Below are positions 7,587 through 51,892 of a DNA stretch of 64,000 nucleotides, piece by piece (the stretch's first letter is position 1; each line of letters begins with the position of its first letter). A program made the translations under genes and the position numbers. The notes below the pieces were generated by a model. That model ran no database searches. It saw only the letters and a program-made list of their open reading frames with translations, and was not told the DNA's origin. The stretch comes from an uncultured cyanobacterium (lineage in GTDB: Bacteria; Cyanobacteriota; Cyanobacteriia; Cyanobacteriales; Nostocaceae). The stretch lies in NCBI GenBank assembly GCA_903848645.1, contig CAINGU010000082.1, positions 124,001 to 188,000 on the forward strand, read 5' to 3'.

Positions 7587-7793
7587 ATGGCTCGTTTATT
7601 TAAAGTAACTGCTTGTGTTCCTAGCCTAAGTCGGACTCGCACCCAACGCGAATTACAAAATACTTACTTTACCAAGTTAGTTCCCTATGAAAACTGGTTT
7701 CGTGAACAGCAACGCATCATGAAAATGGGTGGCAAAATTATTAAGGTGGAATTGGCAACTGGTAAGCAAGGTACTAATACTGGTTTGTCTTAA
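7587..7793 (+). CDS. apcC: Phycobilisome small core linker LC7.8 (ApcC)
   Basis: Small linker that caps allophycocyanin trimers in the core cylinders. 68 residues, starting MARLFKVTACVPS, typical of ApcC/CpcD-type linkers over its whole length. A CAGGAGAT ribosome-binding site precedes ATG 7587. Last gene of the apc cluster, followed by an intrinsic terminator. Confidence 0.97.
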   Translation: MARLFKVTACVPSLSRTRTQRELQNTYFTKLVPYENWFREQQRIMKMGGKIIKVELATGKQGTNTGLS

Positions 7794-7830
7794 TTTCTAT
7801 AAATCAAACATTATTTTACTTTGATTTTAC

Positions 7831-7857
7831 AAGGGGTTTAAAAAGACCTCTTTTTTT
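7831..7857 (+). terminator. Intrinsic terminator after apcC
   Basis: A short stem (AGGGGT pairing with ACCTCT, one G-U pair) with a loop of A residues is followed directly by seven T. It lies 38 bases after the apcC stop codon and probably ends the apcEABC transcript. Confidence 0.75.
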
Positions 7858-8045
7858 GTGGATTAAGTTTTCGATGTTGCTGATTAAGATAATTTAGCTC
7901 ACGCAGAGGCGCAGAGTCACAGAGAGTAGGAGTTTAGTTTATCTTTTTTCTTATTTGATATTCCTTAGTATGAGAGATCGCCTGTGGTGCGATGCGCCAA
8001 TAATAAACTAGAATTAAATAACCTTAGCTAAAAATTCTCTCAACT

Positions 8046-8348
8046 ATGCTAACTGCTACTAACATTGGTACGCTAGTAACCTGTTCTCCAGATGTGAATA
8101 GTGGTCGTCCCGTGATTACAGGAACTAAAACTTCTGTAAGTCGGGTGGTTGTTCTTTACAAACAAGGTGCAAATGCTGAAGAAATTGCCCGTCGGATAAG
8201 TCACCTTAACCTTGCCCAAGTATATGCAGCTTTAGCTTACTACCACGCTAATCGTAATCAGATTGAAACTGAGTTAGCTGAAGCAGAGGCTGAATACTGG
8301 AATTTGGCAACTTTACATAGCCAGAAAGATAAAAATGCAGATGAATAA
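8046..8348 (+). CDS. DUF433 protein, antitoxin-like
   Basis: 100-residue protein of the DUF433 family, a winged-helix-like fold often encoded next to DUF5615 PIN-like proteins. Family features seen are the N-terminal RPVITGTKTSV segment and the EEIARRISHLNLAQVYAALAYY helix pair. Its end overlaps the next gene by 14 bases, so the two are translationally coupled. By analogy it would be the DNA-binding antitoxin of a VapBC-like pair. The C-terminus is acidic and coiled. The family is well recognised; the antitoxin role is inferred from the context. Confidence 0.8.
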   Translation: MLTATNIGTLVTCSPDVNSGRPVITGTKTSVSRVVVLYKQGANAEEIARRISHLNLAQVYAALAYYHANRNQIETELAEAEAEYWNLATLHSQKDKNADE

Positions 8349-8706
8349 AATCCGGCTATATATTGACGAAGATTCTATGGATGAAGATTTTGTTCAAGCT
8401 TTGCGTTCCCGCAATCTAGATGTATTAACAGTTGCAGATGTGGGAATGTTGTACAAATCAGATTCAGAACAGCTAACTTGGGCTAAGGAAAACAACCGAG
8501 TTATATTTAGTTTTAACGCCAGAGACTTTTACCAGATTCATACTACTTTGCTGGAAGAAGGTTTATCTCATGCTGGAATAATTTTAGCACCACAACAAAG
8601 ATACGGAATTGGCAAATTAATGCGCGGGGTTTTACGATTGATTAATACAAAATCAGCAGAAGATATGCAGGGGCAAGTAGAATTTTTAAGTAACTGGGTT
8701 TATTAA
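8335..8706 (+). CDS. DUF5615 PIN-like protein, putative toxin of the pair
   Basis: 123-residue PIN-like (putative RNase) protein. The conserved acidic N-terminus LYIDEDSMDEDFVQALR and the central FSFNARDF segment are typical of DUF5615, where the acidic residues would bind metal. It starts inside the upstream DUF433 gene; ATG 8335 or ATG 8341 (MNKIRLYIDED) are both possible. The pair sits alone between the apc operon and a convergent gene. Nuclease activity and toxicity are inferred from the PIN superfamily. Confidence 0.78.
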   Translation: MQMNKIRLYIDEDSMDEDFVQALRSRNLDVLTVADVGMLYKSDSEQLTWAKENNRVIFSFNARDFYQIHTTLLEEGLSHAGIILAPQQRYGIGKLMRGVLRLINTKSAEDMQGQVEFLSNWVY

Positions 8707-44441: not shown

Positions 44442-45410
44442 ATGAGAGATTGGTGGAAGCAATGGCTGATAAACCTGGGAGATTGGTCACAGTCCTTGCT
44501 CCTTGGGACTCTGGATATGATGTTAGTGCTGGCACTGACATACATGATCCTAGTGATTATTAGTGAACGACGCACGTTATGGATGGTGCGAGGATTTATA
44601 GTCTTAATGCTCTGCTCGGCACTGAGTGGCAAATTAGGATTACCTCTGCTCAATTTCGTCCTGGAAAAATTGGTGATTGGCTGTGCTGTAGCTATGGCAG
44701 TAGCACTCCAATCAGAATTTCGTCGCTTTTTGGAACAATTGGGACGTGGTGAATTTTGGCAGTTGTTTCGGAATAATCGCTTGGCCATTCCTAAGTCGGA
44801 TAGTGTCATTGATGAAATTGTGGATGCAGTTAAGGAATTATCCAAAAATCGGATTGGGGCTTTACTAATTTTAGAAACCACAGGACCTATTGAAGAGCAA
44901 GATTTCTCAGTTCCAGGAGTCAAGCTCAATGCCGAAGTTTCTAAAGAACTAATCCAAACTATTTTTCAACCCAAAACCCTGTTACACGATGGAGCAACGT
45001 TAATTCGTGGTTCACGCATTGTATCATCAGGTATAATTTTACCACTTTCAGGACGCACAGCTTCACGGCAGTTGGGAACACGCCATCGGGCAGCTATGGG
45101 AATTACGGAAAGAGTCGAAAATTGTATTTGTGTCGTTGTATCTGAAGAAACGGGTTCTATTTCCTTAGCGGAACGCGGAACTCTATATAGACCACTAACT
45201 ATTAAAAAGCTCAAAGAGTCTTTAGAGGCACGATTTTCTCCAACTGTAGATCGGGAAGCTGTAGCCCCTGGTATTTTAAGTTTAGTTCGTCAACTTGGTA
45301 GTCAGTCACTAAAATTAATTTCCCGATTACCTGGATTACCTTGTCTTCGACACGCTACCCGTAGCTTGCTGCCCCGTAGGGGTACGACCGCTTCTCAAGA
45401 TAAAAAATGA
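44442..45410 (+). CDS. cdaA: Diadenylate cyclase (c-di-AMP synthase, CdaA)
   Basis: 322 residues. Three N-terminal transmembrane helices (about 20-90: [44 protein letters not shown]) are followed by a DisA_N cyclase domain. Catalytic motifs are [11 protein letters not shown] (DGA) and [10 protein letters not shown] (RHR); the GSISLAERG segment is typical. Makes c-di-AMP, which controls osmolyte and K+ balance. The last about 22 residues (301-322, [16 protein letters not shown]...) are translated from a GC-rich dispersed repeat at 45345-45396 and look acquired. The stop overlaps the uppS start by 4 bases (ATGA). Confidence 0.96.
45345..45396. repeat. GC-rich dispersed repeat inside the cdaA 3' end
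   Basis: Contains CACGCTACCCGTAGC and a GCCCCGTAGGGGT palindrome (CCCC/GGGG arms), the same kind of GC-rich 'GCTACGC/CCGTAGG' sequence seen in dispersed repeats of Nostocales and in shorter form at about 18508-18525 and 52300-52318 here. It is read in frame as the CdaA C-terminus. Confidence 0.6.
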
Positions 45411-46156
45411 AAACACAACCAACTGATTTGCAATATTTACCCCTTGACTTAAAACGAGAATTACTACCCCACCACGTCGCGGTAATTATGGATGGTAATG
45501 GCCGATGGGCAAAGCGTCAAGGTTTACCCCGAATTATGGGTCATAAAGCTGGTGTAAATGTTCTCAAGGATTTGCTGCACTGTTGCAAGGACTGGGGAAT
45601 TAAAGCCCTAACGGCCTATGCTTTTTCGACGGAAAACTGGAAAAGACCAGAGGAAGAGGTGGAATTTTTAATGACTCTGTTCCAGCGAGTTCTGCGGCAA
45701 GAACTGCGGGAAATGGTGGAGGAAAATGTGCAAATTCAGTTCGTGGGTAATTTGTCAGCTTTGCCACAGGCACTTCAGACGGAAATTTCCCGTTCTATGG
45801 CTCAAACTCAGGATAATCGCAGTATTCGGTTTACAATTGCGACTAATTATGGGAGTAGACAAGAGATTTTACAAGCTTGTCGAGCGATCGCTCAAAAAGT
45901 CCAAGAAGGGTTACTAAAGCCTGACGACATCTCCGAAGAAATATTTGAAGCTCATTTATATACGGCCGGAGTAGCAGATCCCGATTTATTAATTCGTACC
46001 AGTGGAGAAATGCGATTATCAAATTTCTTACTTTGGCAAATGGCCTATGGAGAAATTTATATTAGTGACGCTCTTTGGCCAGATTTTAACCGCAGTGAGT
46101 TTCATCGAGCTTTATCTGCTTATCAACAACGAGAACGCCGTTTTGGGAAAGTGTGA
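45407..46156 (+). CDS. uppS: Isoprenyl transferase (undecaprenyl diphosphate synthase)
   Basis: 249 residues; adds isopentenyl units in cis to make the C55 carrier lipid for peptidoglycan and polysaccharide. All conserved regions are present: [20 protein letters not shown] (catalytic Asp), [22 protein letters not shown], and [20 protein letters not shown]. Starts within the cdaA stop (ATGA overlap), so the two are translationally coupled, linking c-di-AMP and cell-wall lipid synthesis genes. Confidence 0.97.
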
Positions 46157-47000: not shown

Positions 47001-47185
47001 AGAAGTTTTTTATATTCTAAATCATCTTTACGAGATGTTTCTCCGGTATAGTTTTTTTGAGGTAAGTTAATTTGCGTTCAGAAGAAATTTGATAGTTGGC
47101 TGGCTCTGCTCAAACTCCTTTCTATTTTTTCTTCAACTATGACATCTACAAAATAATTTTTGATTACCAGGAAATTCGTAACTTA

Positions 47186-50100
47186 ATGCTAATAGAGAAA
47201 CCCCTTCTTTCAACATCTAGATTAACTTTTGCTTTATTTGCCTCTGATGCTCACTATCTACCTGCTGTACAACTGATAAGTTTGCTAACGGCTAAGAAGT
47301 TGGCAAAAGTCCGGGCATTAAAACGCTTTCGTGTTGTCCCATCAACAAATTCAGCCATTGAATGGTTGAATATCAACACTGTTTCTCAAGATATTCTTCA
47401 AGAATATTTTTGTGGTGCGGAAACGGCATTTGTGTTTATTATGCCCACAGATTTGTCAGATATTACTCAACTGACACACTCAATGCTAGAAATCGCAAAA
47501 GCAGCAGGAGTCCGTCGTTTAGCTTGGGTTGCACCAGCCTGTCCTCCCGGAACAGAACTAAGTCAACGTCTAACTGAAGCTGCAAATACTGTCCGTTCCT
47601 CTGGATTAGAGACTTTAGTATTATTTCATGCGCCTTTACTCTCTGATTTACTAGAGCAAAAGAAGGAATTAAAATTCCGGCGGACTCTATCTTTACCACT
47701 AGGTAACAGCAGTTTACCTTGGTTAGCACCAGAGGTAATTGCCAAGGCACTATATAAATGGGCGTTGGGTGAATTGAACAGTCAACCACCAGAACTGCTA
47801 ACAGGGGCAACGCAACTTACAGGACAGGATATTGCCAAAGCACTATCGGCTGTACTGTCGCAAACAATGAATACACGGCAGTTTGCTCAACTGCGATTTG
47901 AGGCGATTGACTTAGATCAAAGTGGACAGATTGATGCAGAAGAACTTTTTCCCTATCTGTTGGATTTAGGATACAGCCACGACGATGCTCAAACAATTCT
48001 GCAACAGGCGGATACAGACAAAAGTGGGACAATAGATTTTGAGGAATTCATTCAGGGATTAGAAGAACATCTGAGCAAGATTTTATCAGATGTACCTACA
48101 GAAGTGCGTTACTTTGATCTACCTCCATCCGCAGCACTGCACGACTGGATGGTAAGCGGTATCAGTGATAAGGCTGCCAAGTCCCGTTTAGAGTGGCTAA
48201 CGGCATTGAATCAGTATGGATTGCCAGAACAGGGAGAAACTGTAACTGAATGGTGGAATTTACCTAATCCTTCCCTAAAAGATTGGGCAAATCAACATAT
48301 TTTGGAATTAATCAACGTCTATATTCTGCCAGGACGAGGCATTCTGACTATCAGTGAAGGATTGCTAGAAGGAAGACCAGCATTAATTACCCGTTTGCTA
48401 CAAGCTAATAATAGAATGCTGATTGGTCAGCGTAGTCTTGACGGTGAACTGTTGGAGTGGCGCTGGGAAGATGAGGATACTAGCAATCTGGAGGAGGTAC
48501 GCTACACAGCCGAAAATGGTAGTGAACGAGTCCTCAAATTAAGAGATAGCAAGCTGGCCAGCCTCTCTGTGAAAGGACGTTGGGCAGGACGGAGGTTAGC
48601 AATTCAATTATTTTTCCAAGATCAGCTTTTACCACGTTGGCAGGTGGCTTTATTCAGAGAATTGGGAGAATTGCAGATTGAGGAAGCGATCGCTCTGGGT
48701 GCGGATAGTGATATTGTTTGTAACTGCACAAAGACCACCTGTGGCAGGGTGCGAGAACTGATTGAGACAGGTTTGGATACCTTAGACAGAATTGTTGAGC
48801 AAACTCAAGTAACGATGGTTTGTGGTAGTTGCCAACCTTTAGTTGAGGAAATGTTAGGTTCGGCAAGTCTGGCGGTTGCTGAACTGATTGGTAAACAAGA
48901 TTTAGGACGAAATATGGTGTGTTTCCAGTTTCGTCCGGTGTATGAAGAAATTGTCGCCTCTAAACCGGGACAACATATCTTAATTCAAGGGCGGGTTGAT
49001 GGCAGTTGGGCAACTCGCGCTTATACTTTGAGTTCACCAGCGGATCAAACAAAGCAGTATGAAATCACGGTTAAACGTGAGGAGTTAGGATTATTTTCGC
49101 GGTGGTTATGCGATCGCGCTGATGGAGACGCTTTAATTAGAATTTCCCAACCACGGGGTGAGTTTGTCTTGGAAGATGAACAGCCTGTGATTTTCTTTGC
49201 TGGGGGAATTGGGATTACTCCAGCGATCGCTATGATGCGAACTCTTGCTAATCGTGGTGATACTCGTTTATTTCATCTTGATTGTTCTGCTCCCTATTCC
49301 GAAGATTTCGTTTTTAAATCAGAATTGGAAGAACTCACGACTGCTCACCCAAATTTAACTTTTACTCTCCGTGCCACCCGATCTGGTAAAAGACTGGATG
49401 CAGTCGCAGTCCAAAATCTTTATTCCTATGCTGACGGAACAGTTGCATTTATGTGTGGTCCCCAGCCCTTTATGGATGGAATGCGCGACTATTTGCAGCA
49501 AGCTGGCTGGCCAAATACAGCTATTCATCAAGAGTTATTCTCCTCAAAATTGGATGAAGAGGGCAAAGCTAATACTCCCGTCCGGCAAGCAATTCAACTA
49601 GCAGGAGGCATTACCCCGATTGAGCAAGACAGTATATATGTTGAGGCGATCACTTCGGTAATGCCGGAAGCAGAAGTATTCCTCAAGCAATGTTACTTAG
49701 AACAAGGATTAGCGGAAGTATTCATCCCGCGTTGGCAAGAGGTAAAAGCCACCATTGAGGAAACAGGAACTTATGAACACACTTATGATGAACTAGCTTA
49801 TGGGACAAAGTTAGCTTGGCGTAATAGTAATCGTTGCTTGGGACGGAATTTTTGGCAAAGTTTGCAATTGCGCGATATGCGACATCTGCAAACCGAAGAA
49901 GAGATTTTTCAAACTTTAGTAGAACATATTAAATTTGCTACCAATAACGGTAATTTGCGATCAACTATTACCATCCTTAGTCCTTACCTGAAAATTCGGA
50001 TCTGGAACGGTTTGATGTTGCGGTATGCAGGTTATCGGCAACCAGATGGTTCAATTTTGGGTGATCCTGCCAACGTTGAATTAACAGAACAAGCACTGAA

Positions 50101-50761
50101 ATTTGGTTGGACAAAAGAATCTCGCACCCGCTTTGATTTACTACCATTAATTATCCAAATAGGAGAAAGTGAGCCAAAATGGTTTGAAATTCCTCCAGAA
50201 ATTGTGATGGAAGTTCCTCTTTCTCATCCTCGTTATGAGTGGTTTGAGGAATTAGGACTGAAGTGGTTTGCTTTACCTGCGGTTAGTAATATGATGCTCG
50301 ATATGGGCGGTATTCAGTATCCCACACCGTTTAATGGCTTCTACATGGGTGCAGAAATCGGAGCGAGAAACTTTAGTGATCTTGATCGCTACAATATGCT
50401 CCCAATTATTGCCAAAAAAATTGGTTTAGATTGCAGCGAAACAATGACACTTTGGAAAGATTTAGCTTTAGTAGAACTGAATGTGGCTGTTCTATATTCA
50501 TACAAAAAACATGGAGTCAGAATACTTGATCACCATGCTTTAACCGCTTCCTTTGTGCAGTTTTTAGATGATGAAAAACAGTGTGGTCGTCATGTTTATG
50601 GCGATCGCGTTTGGCTAACTCCTCCACTATCAGCTTCTACGACTCCAGTTTTTAACATAGAGTTTGAAAATCGTCTTCTCAAACCCAACTATTTCTATCA
50701 ACGCGACCCTTGGGAAACAGAATCTGCTGCTGCTAAGTGTCCATTCCACCATCAATCTTAA
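47186..50761 (+). CDS. Multidomain nitric oxide synthase: NmrA-like, EF-hands, [2Fe-2S], FAD/NAD(P) reductase, NOS oxygenase
   Basis: 1191 residues from ATG 47186 (a TTG at 47096 would add 30). In order: an NmrA/NAD(P)-binding-like region without a clear glycine-rich loop (about 10-220); two canonical EF-hand loops, DLDQSGQIDAEE (242-253) and DTDKSGTIDFEE (276-287); an unrecognised segment (300-505). A BFD-type [2Fe-2S] domain follows (Cys512, 514, 546, 549), then a ferredoxin-reductase-like module with RAYTLSS (611-617), GGIGITP (673-679) and CGP (757-759). The C-terminal NOS oxygenase (about 815-1191) has heme-ligand Cys884 in AWRNSNRCLGR and arginine-binding Glu1057 in FYMGAEIGARN. All these motifs are intact, so NO formation from L-arginine is expected. 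The reductase precedes the oxygenase, as described for Sorangium NOS, and no FMN or globin domain is seen. Confidence 0.93.
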   Translation: MLIEKPLLSTSRLTFALFASDAHYLPAVQLISLLTAKKLAKVRALKRFRVVPSTNSAIEWLNINTVSQDILQEYFCGAETAFVFIMPTDLSDITQLTHSMLEIAKAAGVRRLAWVAPACPPGTELSQRLTEAANTVRSSGLETLVLFHAPLLSDLLEQKKELKFRRTLSLPLGNSSLPWLAPEVIAKALYKWALGELNSQPPELLTGATQLTGQDIAKALSAVLSQTMNTRQFAQLRFEAIDLDQSGQIDAEELFPYLLDLGYSHDDAQTILQQADTDKSGTIDFEEFIQGLEEHLSKILSDVPTEVRYFDLPPSAALHDWMVSGISDKAAKSRLEWLTALNQYGLPEQGETVTEWWNLPNPSLKDWANQHILELINVYILPGRGILTISEGLLEGRPALITRLLQANNRMLIGQRSLDGELLEWRWEDEDTSNLEEVRYTAENGSERVLKLRDSKLASLSVKGRWAGRRLAIQLFFQDQLLPRWQVALFRELGELQIEEAIALGADSDIVCNCTKTTCGRVRELIETGLDTLDRIVEQTQVTMVCGSCQPLVEEMLGSASLAVAELIGKQDLGRNMVCFQFRPVYEEIVASKPGQHILIQGRVDGSWATRAYTLSSPADQTKQYEITVKREELGLFSRWLCDRADGDALIRISQPRGEFVLEDEQPVIFFAGGIGITPAIAMMRTLANRGDTRLFHLDCSAPYSEDFVFKSELEELTTAHPNLTFTLRATRSGKRLDAVAVQNLYSYADGTVAFMCGPQPFMDGMRDYLQQAGWPNTAIHQELFSSKLDEEGKANTPVRQAIQLAGGITPIEQDSIYVEAITSVMPEAEVFLKQCYLEQGLAEVFIPRWQEVKATIEETGTYEHTYDELAYGTKLAWRNSNRCLGRNFWQSLQLRDMRHLQTEEEIFQTLVEHIKFATNNGNLRSTITILSPYLKIRIWNGLMLRYAGYRQPDGSILGDPANVELTEQALKFGWTKESRTRFDLLPLIIQIGESEPKWFEIPPEIVMEVPLSHPRYEWFEELGLKWFALPAVSNMMLDMGGIQYPTPFNGFYMGAEIGARNFSDLDRYNMLPIIAKKIGLDCSETMTLWKDLALVELNVAVLYSYKKHGVRILDHHALTASFVQFLDDEKQCGRHVYGDRVWLTPPLSASTTPVFNIEFENRLLKPNYFYQRDPWETESAAAKCPFHHQS

Positions 50762-50980: not shown

Positions 50981-51892
50981 ATGAACAATGACAATAATTG
51001 GTTTAAATTAGCCCTGAGTTTCAGAGGTTCGGTTATTCGAGATATTAAGTATCAGGTAGCAGTAACTATGATTATTGCTCTGATCATCACAGTTTTATAT
51101 GAAGGAGGAAAATACACAGGATTAAGTCAGCCTACTTTAGCCGGATTGATTCCGGGAATTGTCCTGGGTTTGCTGTTAGTTTTCCGCACGAATACTGCCT
51201 ATGACAGATTTTGGGAAGGTTGGCAAGTTGGCGGGATGACAATATTTACAGGTCGTAATTTATCTCGACAAATATGGATGAATATCCTTGTTAAAAGTTT
51301 TGAAGATCAAGAAAAAAAAGCCTATCATTTGCGATTAATTGCCGCATTTTTTGTCGCCATGACACAACATTTGCGGCGAGAAGGTGTAGATGATCGTCTA
51401 AAATCTCTTTTAGCTCCAGAACATTATTTAGAATTGCAAAATGTTAGCAATATGCCACTGAGAATTACTCAATGGATTGGCATATATTTAGCTCAACAAT
51501 ACAACCTAAAACACATAGATAGTATTCAATTTGCCGCCATCAACCGTTTACTCGACCAATTAGTCGAATGTTTATCGCGCTGCGAACGCATTCTTAATGC
51601 CCCAATTCCTAGAGCTTATTCAATACATTTACGGCAGTTATTAATTTTGTATTGTTTTGCCTTGCCTTTTCAAATGGTGAAAGATTTACATTGGTGGACG
51701 GTACTAGCTGTTGGTGTTGTAGCTTTTGCATTATTTGGTATTGAAGCCATTGGATTAGAGATTGAAAACCCATTTGGTTATGATCCTAATGATATTCCGT
51801 TAGATAATCTTTGTCGCAAATTACATAACGATATAGAAGAACTAATAGCTGCTCATCAAGATGCGATGCCTACTGTAAGTGAAAGCGAATAG
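50981..51892 (+). CDS. Bestrophin-family anion channel
   Basis: 303-residue bestrophin/UPF0187 membrane protein. Characteristic segments are FRGSVIRDIKYQVAVTMIIAL, the RTNTAYDRFWEGWQVGG motif, and PLRITQWIGIYLAQQ, with the late LHWWTVLAVGVVAFALFGIEAIGLEIENPFGYDPNDIPLD-type end (quoted in parts). Forms pentameric chloride/bicarbonate channels; thylakoid homologues tune proton-motive force and bicarbonate supply. Lies 219 bases after the NOS gene on the same strand. Confidence 0.93.
   Translation: MNNDNNWFKLALSFRGSVIRDIKYQVAVTMIIALIITVLYEGGKYTGLSQPTLAGLIPGIVLGLLLVFRTNTAYDRFWEGWQVGGMTIFTGRNLSRQIWMNILVKSFEDQEKKAYHLRLIAAFFVAMTQHLRREGVDDRLKSLLAPEHYLELQNVSNMPLRITQWIGIYLAQQYNLKHIDSIQFAAINRLLDQLVECLSRCERILNAPIPRAYSIHLRQLLILYCFALPFQMVKDLHWWTVLAVGVVAFALFGIEAIGLEIENPFGYDPNDIPLDNLCRKLHNDIEELIAAHQDAMPTVSESE

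Follow-up and report, generated by a model that had tools for sequence, protein, structure and literature searches.

The gene at positions 47186..50761 (+ strand) of the window, by which we mean the whole 64,000-nucleotide stretch analysed from an uncultured cyanobacterium of the Nostocaceae, encodes a nitric oxide synthase (NOS) of 1191 amino acids (aa) in a single uninterrupted open reading frame (ORF). A degenerate dehydrogenase-type domain with an inserted pair of EF-hands stands at its N-terminus, and is followed by a beta domain termed X, a BFD-type [2Fe-2S] domain, a flavin adenine dinucleotide (FAD) and nicotinamide adenine dinucleotide (phosphate) (NAD(P)) reductase and the NOS oxygenase. 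The protein very probably makes nitric oxide (NO) from arginine, as the NOS reaction follows from homology, and we infer, with confidence a little better than even, that it is a Ca2+-gated, self-sufficient enzyme. It belongs to the reductase-first [2Fe-2S] NOS kind, of which the literature already contains an outline. New here are the nesting of the EF-hands in an NmrA fold, the conservation of their loops, an oxygenase clade with its own active-site Phe, and a relative from Sericytochromatia that carries cyclic nucleotide monophosphate (cNMP)-binding domains.

The N-terminal unit consists of the first part of an NmrA/short-chain dehydrogenase (SDR) domain (aa 1-228, 47186..47869), the EF-hand pair (aa ~229-301, 47870..48088) and the C-terminal part of the NmrA domain, which picks up after the insertion (aa ~302-368, 48089..48289), all on the + strand. 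By Pfam there is only a hint of NmrA in the window protein (E 0.058, below the family cut-off), and the EasG (NmrA-type) profile of NCBIfam matches the N-terminus weakly (E 8.2e-5). The NmrA-like region proposed in an earlier note, made from the letters of this DNA alone, becomes firm with hhalign: the profile of aa 10-228 matches an NmrA-type protein of a related genome (L123, 287 aa) with a probability of 96.7%, and the N-terminal profile from which the EF pair has been removed matches the NmrA type at ~98%. The profile of the seven intact N-terminal parts scores 71.0 against L123 with the EF pair and 94.6 without it. The segment before the pair aligns to L123 residues 46-217 and the segment after it to residues 216-281; on its own the tail reaches a score of 32.6, whereas 100 shuffles (one reference, L123, with only the tail columns shuffled) gave at most 19.7 and on average 11.3, and the EF stretch alone scores 12.2. 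Because the flanks match consecutive parts of L123 and the score rises without the EF pair, profile comparison identifies the pair as an insertion between the two halves of one NmrA domain. The earlier note had listed EF-hands and NmrA region side by side; both are present, and they form one unit.

The NmrA reference set comprised five of nine extracted sequences (those above 200 aa), the other four, in the wrong frame, being left out. In a previous comparison that retained the EF pair and included these four, part of the EF pair was misaligned to the NmrA tail. When the EF pair is removed, the EasG match extends beyond the insertion in two of three sequences (G592 to position 281 and G099 to 244, of 287), the window sequence being the one of the three without such an extension. 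The GxxGxxG nucleotide-binding motif of active NmrA/SDR dehydrogenases is absent from 7/7 intact copies, so the domain probably binds no NAD(P).

Two textbook EF-hands, as the earlier note had called them, are indeed found in the translation. Their 12-residue loops, DLDQSGQIDAEE (aa 242-253) and DTDKSGTIDFEE (aa 276-287), both carry ligand residues at positions 1, 3, 5 and 12 together with Gly6, and Pfam returns EF-hand_5 in two stretches (E 1.5e-11) and an EF-hand_7 pair (aa 235-291, E 9.8e-10). The loops are predicted, with good confidence, to bind Ca2+. Their retention among NOS-linked copies is clear from the alignment: the usual ligand residues occupy positions 1, 3, 5 and 12 of EF1 in all 13 copies, with Gly6 in 12, while EF2, alignable in 12 copies, has Asp1 in 10 and the expected residues at positions 3, 5, 6 and 12 in every one. 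In the copy of genome G545, interrupted within this region, EF2 past the insert reads DRDGSGTIDFEE. A stand-alone NmrA protein without a NOS part occurs in G544 (L084 6132-7217, 361 aa) and has a degenerate EF-like stretch; Lys occupies positions 1 and 12 of its EF1, the Gly of EF2 is lost as aligned, and Pfam detects no EF-hand in it. In the window genome EF-hand pairs are scarce, with three matches including the NOS gene.

The whole protein evolves under purifying selection. Compared with the homologue of Cylindrospermum sp. NIES-4074, omega (the ratio of non-synonymous to synonymous change) lies between 0.05 and 0.18 across all segments, with 0.088 for the EF pair, 0.183 and 0.125 for the two NmrA parts and 0.053-0.070 for X, BFD, reductase and oxygenase. 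For L022 versus L090 the corresponding values are 0.233, 0.265 and 0.207, and 0.10-0.21; for certain segments of more distant pairs omega is not defined, synonymous divergence being saturated. At the protein level, EF pair identity exceeds that of both NmrA parts in 5/5 pairs (0.91 versus 0.75 and 0.76 for window and Cylindrospermum).

The C-terminal oxygenase (aa 824-1177, 49655..50716, + strand) matches NO_synthase (PF02898) in full length, from model position 4 to 362 of 362 (E 4.9e-156). It has the heme ligand Cys884, the proximal Trp878 and the substrate-binding Glu1057, and the heme Cys, Trp and Glu are present in 12/12 copies examined. Its closest solved structures are 2flq, which we take to be a bacterial NOS, and brain NOS, each aligned across the entire domain. 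Preceding it are the BFD-type [2Fe-2S] domain (Fer2_BFD, PF04324, aa 510-557, 48713..48856, E 5.8e-10), whose Cys512, Cys514, Cys546 and Cys549 are retained in 7/7 intact copies, and the reductase (aa 566-767, 48881..49486), made up of FAD_binding_6 (PF00970, aa 566-660, E 5.3e-9) and NAD_binding_1 (PF00175, aa 671-767, E 5.3e-10), both on the + strand. These results bear out the earlier note in its complete oxygenase with Cys884 and Glu1057, its reductase N-terminal to the oxygenase, its four cluster cysteines and its cyanobacterial host. Its phrase that an iron-sulfur domain stands where flavin mononucleotide (FMN) would be is loose, since in the sequence BFD comes first, then FAD/NAD and then the oxygenase, so that reductase and oxygenase have no cluster between them.

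All domains named in that note were found, but it missed X (aa ~369-505, 48290..48700, + strand), to which no Pfam family matched. AlphaFold predicts a separate beta domain with two helices; in the best model out of five, most of the domain has block means of the predicted local distance difference test (pLDDT) of 77-91 (model means 57.6-76.4, from an alignment of four rows). Foldseek relates X to the C-terminal domains of AIF, TodA (toluene dioxygenase reductase), MDHAR and rubredoxin reductase with probabilities of 0.51-0.96, all at E >0.1. With X-BFD as the query, the best matches by E are Bet v 1-like and lipocalin-like barrels (probability <=0.35), and none reaches E 0.001. From these models X may, tentatively, resemble the domain found at the C-terminus of AIF/rubredoxin-reductase-type flavoenzymes. 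In NirB, Rubredoxin_C is followed by BFD, and X-BFD may therefore, again tentatively, be a NirB-type piece. For X itself as a NirB-type rubredoxin-reductase C-terminal domain there are hints only and the assignment was not adopted; Rubredoxin_C appears at the X position below threshold (E 6.5e-5) in the Thiomargarita relative described below and nowhere else. An X-BFD model searched against 386 genomes of the phylum gave strong matches only in G000 and G018, both members of the model, and in G099; three weak matches cover the BFD part alone.

For the oxygenase tree and the residue counts, 49 sequences were used, each a stop-free single tblastn piece covering at least 300 residues of the query, with duplicates collapsed and no locus represented twice; fragments, among them G810, G129, G153 and G074, were excluded. 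In this tree the 12 sequences of the EF type form one clade (support 100/99) that excludes the cyanobacterial NOS of the syNOS and oxygenase-only types, and the window oxygenase is nearest to those of Cylindrospermum and G545, not to that of G428, which belongs to the same genus. Position 1052, which by alignment we take to be nNOS Trp587, is Phe in 12/12 EF-type sequences and Trp in 32/32 other NOS of the phylum in the set; five plasmid-borne NOS have Trp (3), Phe (1) or Ile (1). Position 1033, presumably the Val/Ile substrate position of the NOS literature, is Val in 12/12 of the EF type and Ile in 17/17 of the syNOS type, with seven Ile and seven Val among oxygenase-only NOS. Val near the substrate is tied in a passage of PMC9500659 to efficient NO release by mammalian NOS, bacterial NOS having Ile.

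The reading frame is open from a TTG at 47096, 30 codons upstream, or from the ATG at 47186, through 50761. The ATG is preferred because the Cylindrospermum homologue (genome G421; L032 6945-10520) begins at the corresponding Met and is likewise of 1191 aa. The gene is single copy, being the sole match in its own genome (99.99% complete; 257-kb contig). Near its end lies a CP(F/Y) motif (KCPFHHQS, 50735-50758), present in 7/7 intact copies and also at the NOS C-termini of G428 and G153, which we liken to a heme-regulatory Cys-Pro motif.

Homologues were sought at three levels: with PF02898 across the phylum (386 genomes), with the full-length protein across the family (217 genomes) and with residues 1-798 across the order (388 genomes). 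The order search returned 10 genomes, all with the EF type; the family search returned 54, many of which match only in other NOS or in reductases, and among the 16 genomes of the window's genus, its own included, only its own and G428 pass E 1e-20. The distribution of the EF type is patchy: 13 copies in 12 genomes, the window included, of which seven are intact, five apparently broken and one cut by contig ends. An identical unbroken layout is present in six other genomes (G421, G099, G583, G592, G653 and one of two copies in G737), so the window fusion is not a joining artefact, and the frame or assembly error that the earlier note had named as a possible undoing of its claim is excluded. Among the broken copies, that of G545 (L079, ~7760-8557) has ~0.8 kb of other sequence inserted within the EF-hand part, G611 and G737b have one stop each, G723 is in two frames, and G810 has the N-terminal part and then an oxygenase at a contig end, with no X, BFD or reductase match. 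Several of them come from assemblies split into 640-940 contigs, so sequencing errors may account for some of the breaks. Further fragments occur in G129, G532, G533, G405 and G125. The G428 copy has the same layout, cut by two contig ends; a split two-gene form there is unsupported, as both halves stop at contig ends. SDR genes beside an oxygenase-only NOS (Nostoc C052) or near one (Rhizobium), considered as unfused counterparts of the NmrA domain, show no similarity to it (best BLAST E 0.42).

Pfam places [2Fe-2S], FAD and NAD modules ahead of the oxygenase in a single polypeptide, which gives the window protein the layout of the Sorangium type. The NOS of Sorangium cellulosum (scNOS), likened here by layout description, has an N-terminal reductase, a C-terminal oxygenase and [2Fe-2S], FAD and NAD modules according to passages of PMC3701330, PMC9311577 and PMC7400543. 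The first of these (2013) mentions a similar structure in Microcoleus vaginatus and Crinalium epipsammum, with activity yet to be confirmed. In PMC7400543 (2020) a figure legend describes the Microcoleus and Sorangium NOS as reversed in order and as carrying two EF-hands, and the latter is assigned a BFD domain. The Microcoleus and Crinalium proteins, likened by published description, are probably in the same protein family as the window NOS. The novelty that the earlier note had attached to the EF-hands does not survive, as that legend already places them in reversed-order NOS and PMC3701330 already places the layout in cyanobacteria. In the open-licence literature, outside which most subscription papers lie, we found no report of Ca2+ tests on EF-hand NOS of the Sorangium/Microcoleus layout, nor of EF-hands nested in NmrA or of a cNMP-NOS variant.

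The NOS of Synechococcus PCC 7335 (syNOS) is likewise a multidomain cyanobacterial NOS and is Ca2+-sensitive, via a C2-like domain with a Kd of 1.6 uM (passages of PMC12922734). It differs in that the oxygenase precedes an FMN/FAD reductase and in its globin domains and C2-like Ca2+ domain (same source). Oxygenases assigned to the syNOS type from frame length and clade rather than a domain scan group apart, at 41-46% identity. Pfam finds neither globin nor flavodoxin in the window protein, and no domain C-terminal to the oxygenase, so it is not of that type. Mammalian NOS shares the oxygenase fold, the Val at the gate position and, if the window enzyme is gated as we propose, Ca2+ control, but has the opposite domain order, an FMN domain and a separate calmodulin (PMC12922734, in part).

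A collection scan with two narrow peptide patterns returned three loci; Sorangium was not among them, which given the narrowness of the patterns is no evidence of absence. One is a NOS of 1088 aa in a metagenome-assembled genome (MAG) of Sericytochromatia (L033 7248-10514), which shares the X, BFD, FAD/NAD and oxygenase body and has two cNMP-binding domains (E 2.1e-45) instead of the NmrA/EF unit, with no EF-hand match. As the X-BFD model matched only this genome among 18 of its class, the cNMP form with NOS rests on one MAG. Another is a Thiomargarita MAG protein (L034 2609-4744, 711 aa) with one cNMP-binding domain (E 1.4e-18), X, BFD and FAD/NAD but no NOS, in place of which, by eye, is a hydrophobic, membrane-like C-terminus. 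It is possible, though we hold it at somewhat less than even, that the X-[2Fe-2S]-FAD/NAD-oxygenase body serves as a chassis on which different N-terminal sensors can be mounted and that Ca2+ control of NO synthesis has arisen at least three times. The sensors would then be an EF pair in a dead dehydrogenase (photosynthetic cyanobacteria), tandem cNMP-binding domains (Sericytochromatia) and a single one (Thiomargarita, without NOS), and the origins of Ca2+ control would be calmodulin in animals, the C2-like domain in Synechococcus NOS and the inserted EF-hand pair in the window type.

Directly downstream of the NOS gene, after a gap of 219 bp in which no terminator-like site is listed, lies a gene for a bestrophin-type channel (50981..51892, + strand; PF25539, E 1.3e-87), a possible partner. 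Such a gene follows NOS in four of the 12 loci with downstream sequence (window, G545, G099 and G583) and is not found there in Cylindrospermum, G592, G611, G653, G737 (both copies), G723 or G428; bestrophin genes also occur near the NOS fragments of G405 and G532. Bestrophin apart, no neighbouring ORF is common to more than a few of the loci compared. Promoter and terminator scans did no better than shuffles. Upstream of NOS (44442-46156) are, by eye, a diadenylate cyclase-like ORF and, directly after it, an undecaprenyl diphosphate synthase-like ORF. On a conjugative Nostoc plasmid (L115 1879-7122), an SDR gene stands on either side of an oxygenase-only NOS and desaturase and aminotransferase genes come next, in what looks like a biosynthetic cluster.

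In the mechanism we propose, electrons would flow from NAD(P)H through FAD and the BFD-type [2Fe-2S] cluster to the Cys-ligated heme of the C-terminal oxygenase, which would convert L-arginine to citrulline and NO; path and reaction are both read from homology. The dead SDR/NmrA fold would serve as the scaffold for the inserted EF pair, and Ca2+ in both loops would change its shape such that the cluster can reach the heme. This in-chain unit would take the role that calmodulin plays in animal NOS and the C2-like domain in Synechococcus NOS. In favour of this reading are the complete oxygenase with its retained ligands, the conserved BFD cysteines, the kept EF loops (degenerate in the stand-alone G544 protein), the higher identity of the EF pair than of its NmrA flanks, its nesting, the scarcity of EF-hand pairs in this genome and the precedent of syNOS. 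Several observations weigh against gating. By omega, constraint on the EF pair does not exceed that on the catalytic parts; EF1 of G428 is without Gly6, and position 1 of EF2 is His in 2/12 copies (G428 and G737b). Five of the 13 copies (G545, G611, G723, G737b and G810) look broken, and no H-NOX NO sensor was found in the window's own genome at E 0.001. For aa 1-560 AlphaFold gave a poor model (mean pLDDT 51.2), from which docking of the EF unit cannot be argued; its Foldseek matches to SDR/NmrA folds, none of which reaches E 0.001, are consistent with the assigned fold.

Alternatively, the EF-hands might be occupied by Ca2+ at all times and serve only to keep the N-terminal domain in one piece, in which case NOS activity would be constitutive, with arginine, pterin and O2 as the limiting factors. 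Loop conservation would suit such a structural role as well as switching, BFD, reductase and oxygenase already make up a complete electron path, and the Sericytochromatia relative does without a recognisable EF-hand. That same relative nevertheless carries cNMP-binding domains at the corresponding place, which suggests, from one genome, that the N-terminal position is regulatory, and animal and Synechococcus NOS are both Ca2+-regulated (PMC12922734, in part); we consider constitutive activity rather unlikely. A main job in mobilising nitrogen from arginine or in nitration during biosynthesis, with or without Ca2+ control and in place of signalling, seems less probable again. It draws on the proposal for syNOS of a route from arginine nitrogen to nitrate (PMC6104048, in part), on the biosynthetic surroundings of the plasmid-borne oxygenase and on the bestrophin-type gene in a third of the loci. 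It has to contend with the otherwise unshared neighbourhoods and with the lack of a Pfam globin domain that would make nitrate; NtcA-type sites at locus L001 (0 found, 0.89 expected by chance) say little. That the gene is misassembled or dying, as the broken copies and scattered fragments might suggest, is very improbable given an intact window copy with low omega in every segment and the same unbroken fusion in six other genomes.

Should Ca2+ indeed gate the enzyme, it would represent Ca2+-controlled NO synthesis without calmodulin or FMN, with an iron-sulfur relay, in one chain. It would then offer a compact system for studying how a sensor domain gates electron transfer to the NOS heme, and a handle on the targets of cyanobacterial Ca2+ transients. 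How redox enzymes acquire new inputs would be illustrated by the EF pair in a dead dehydrogenase fold and by the cNMP-binding domains that occupy its position in a relative.

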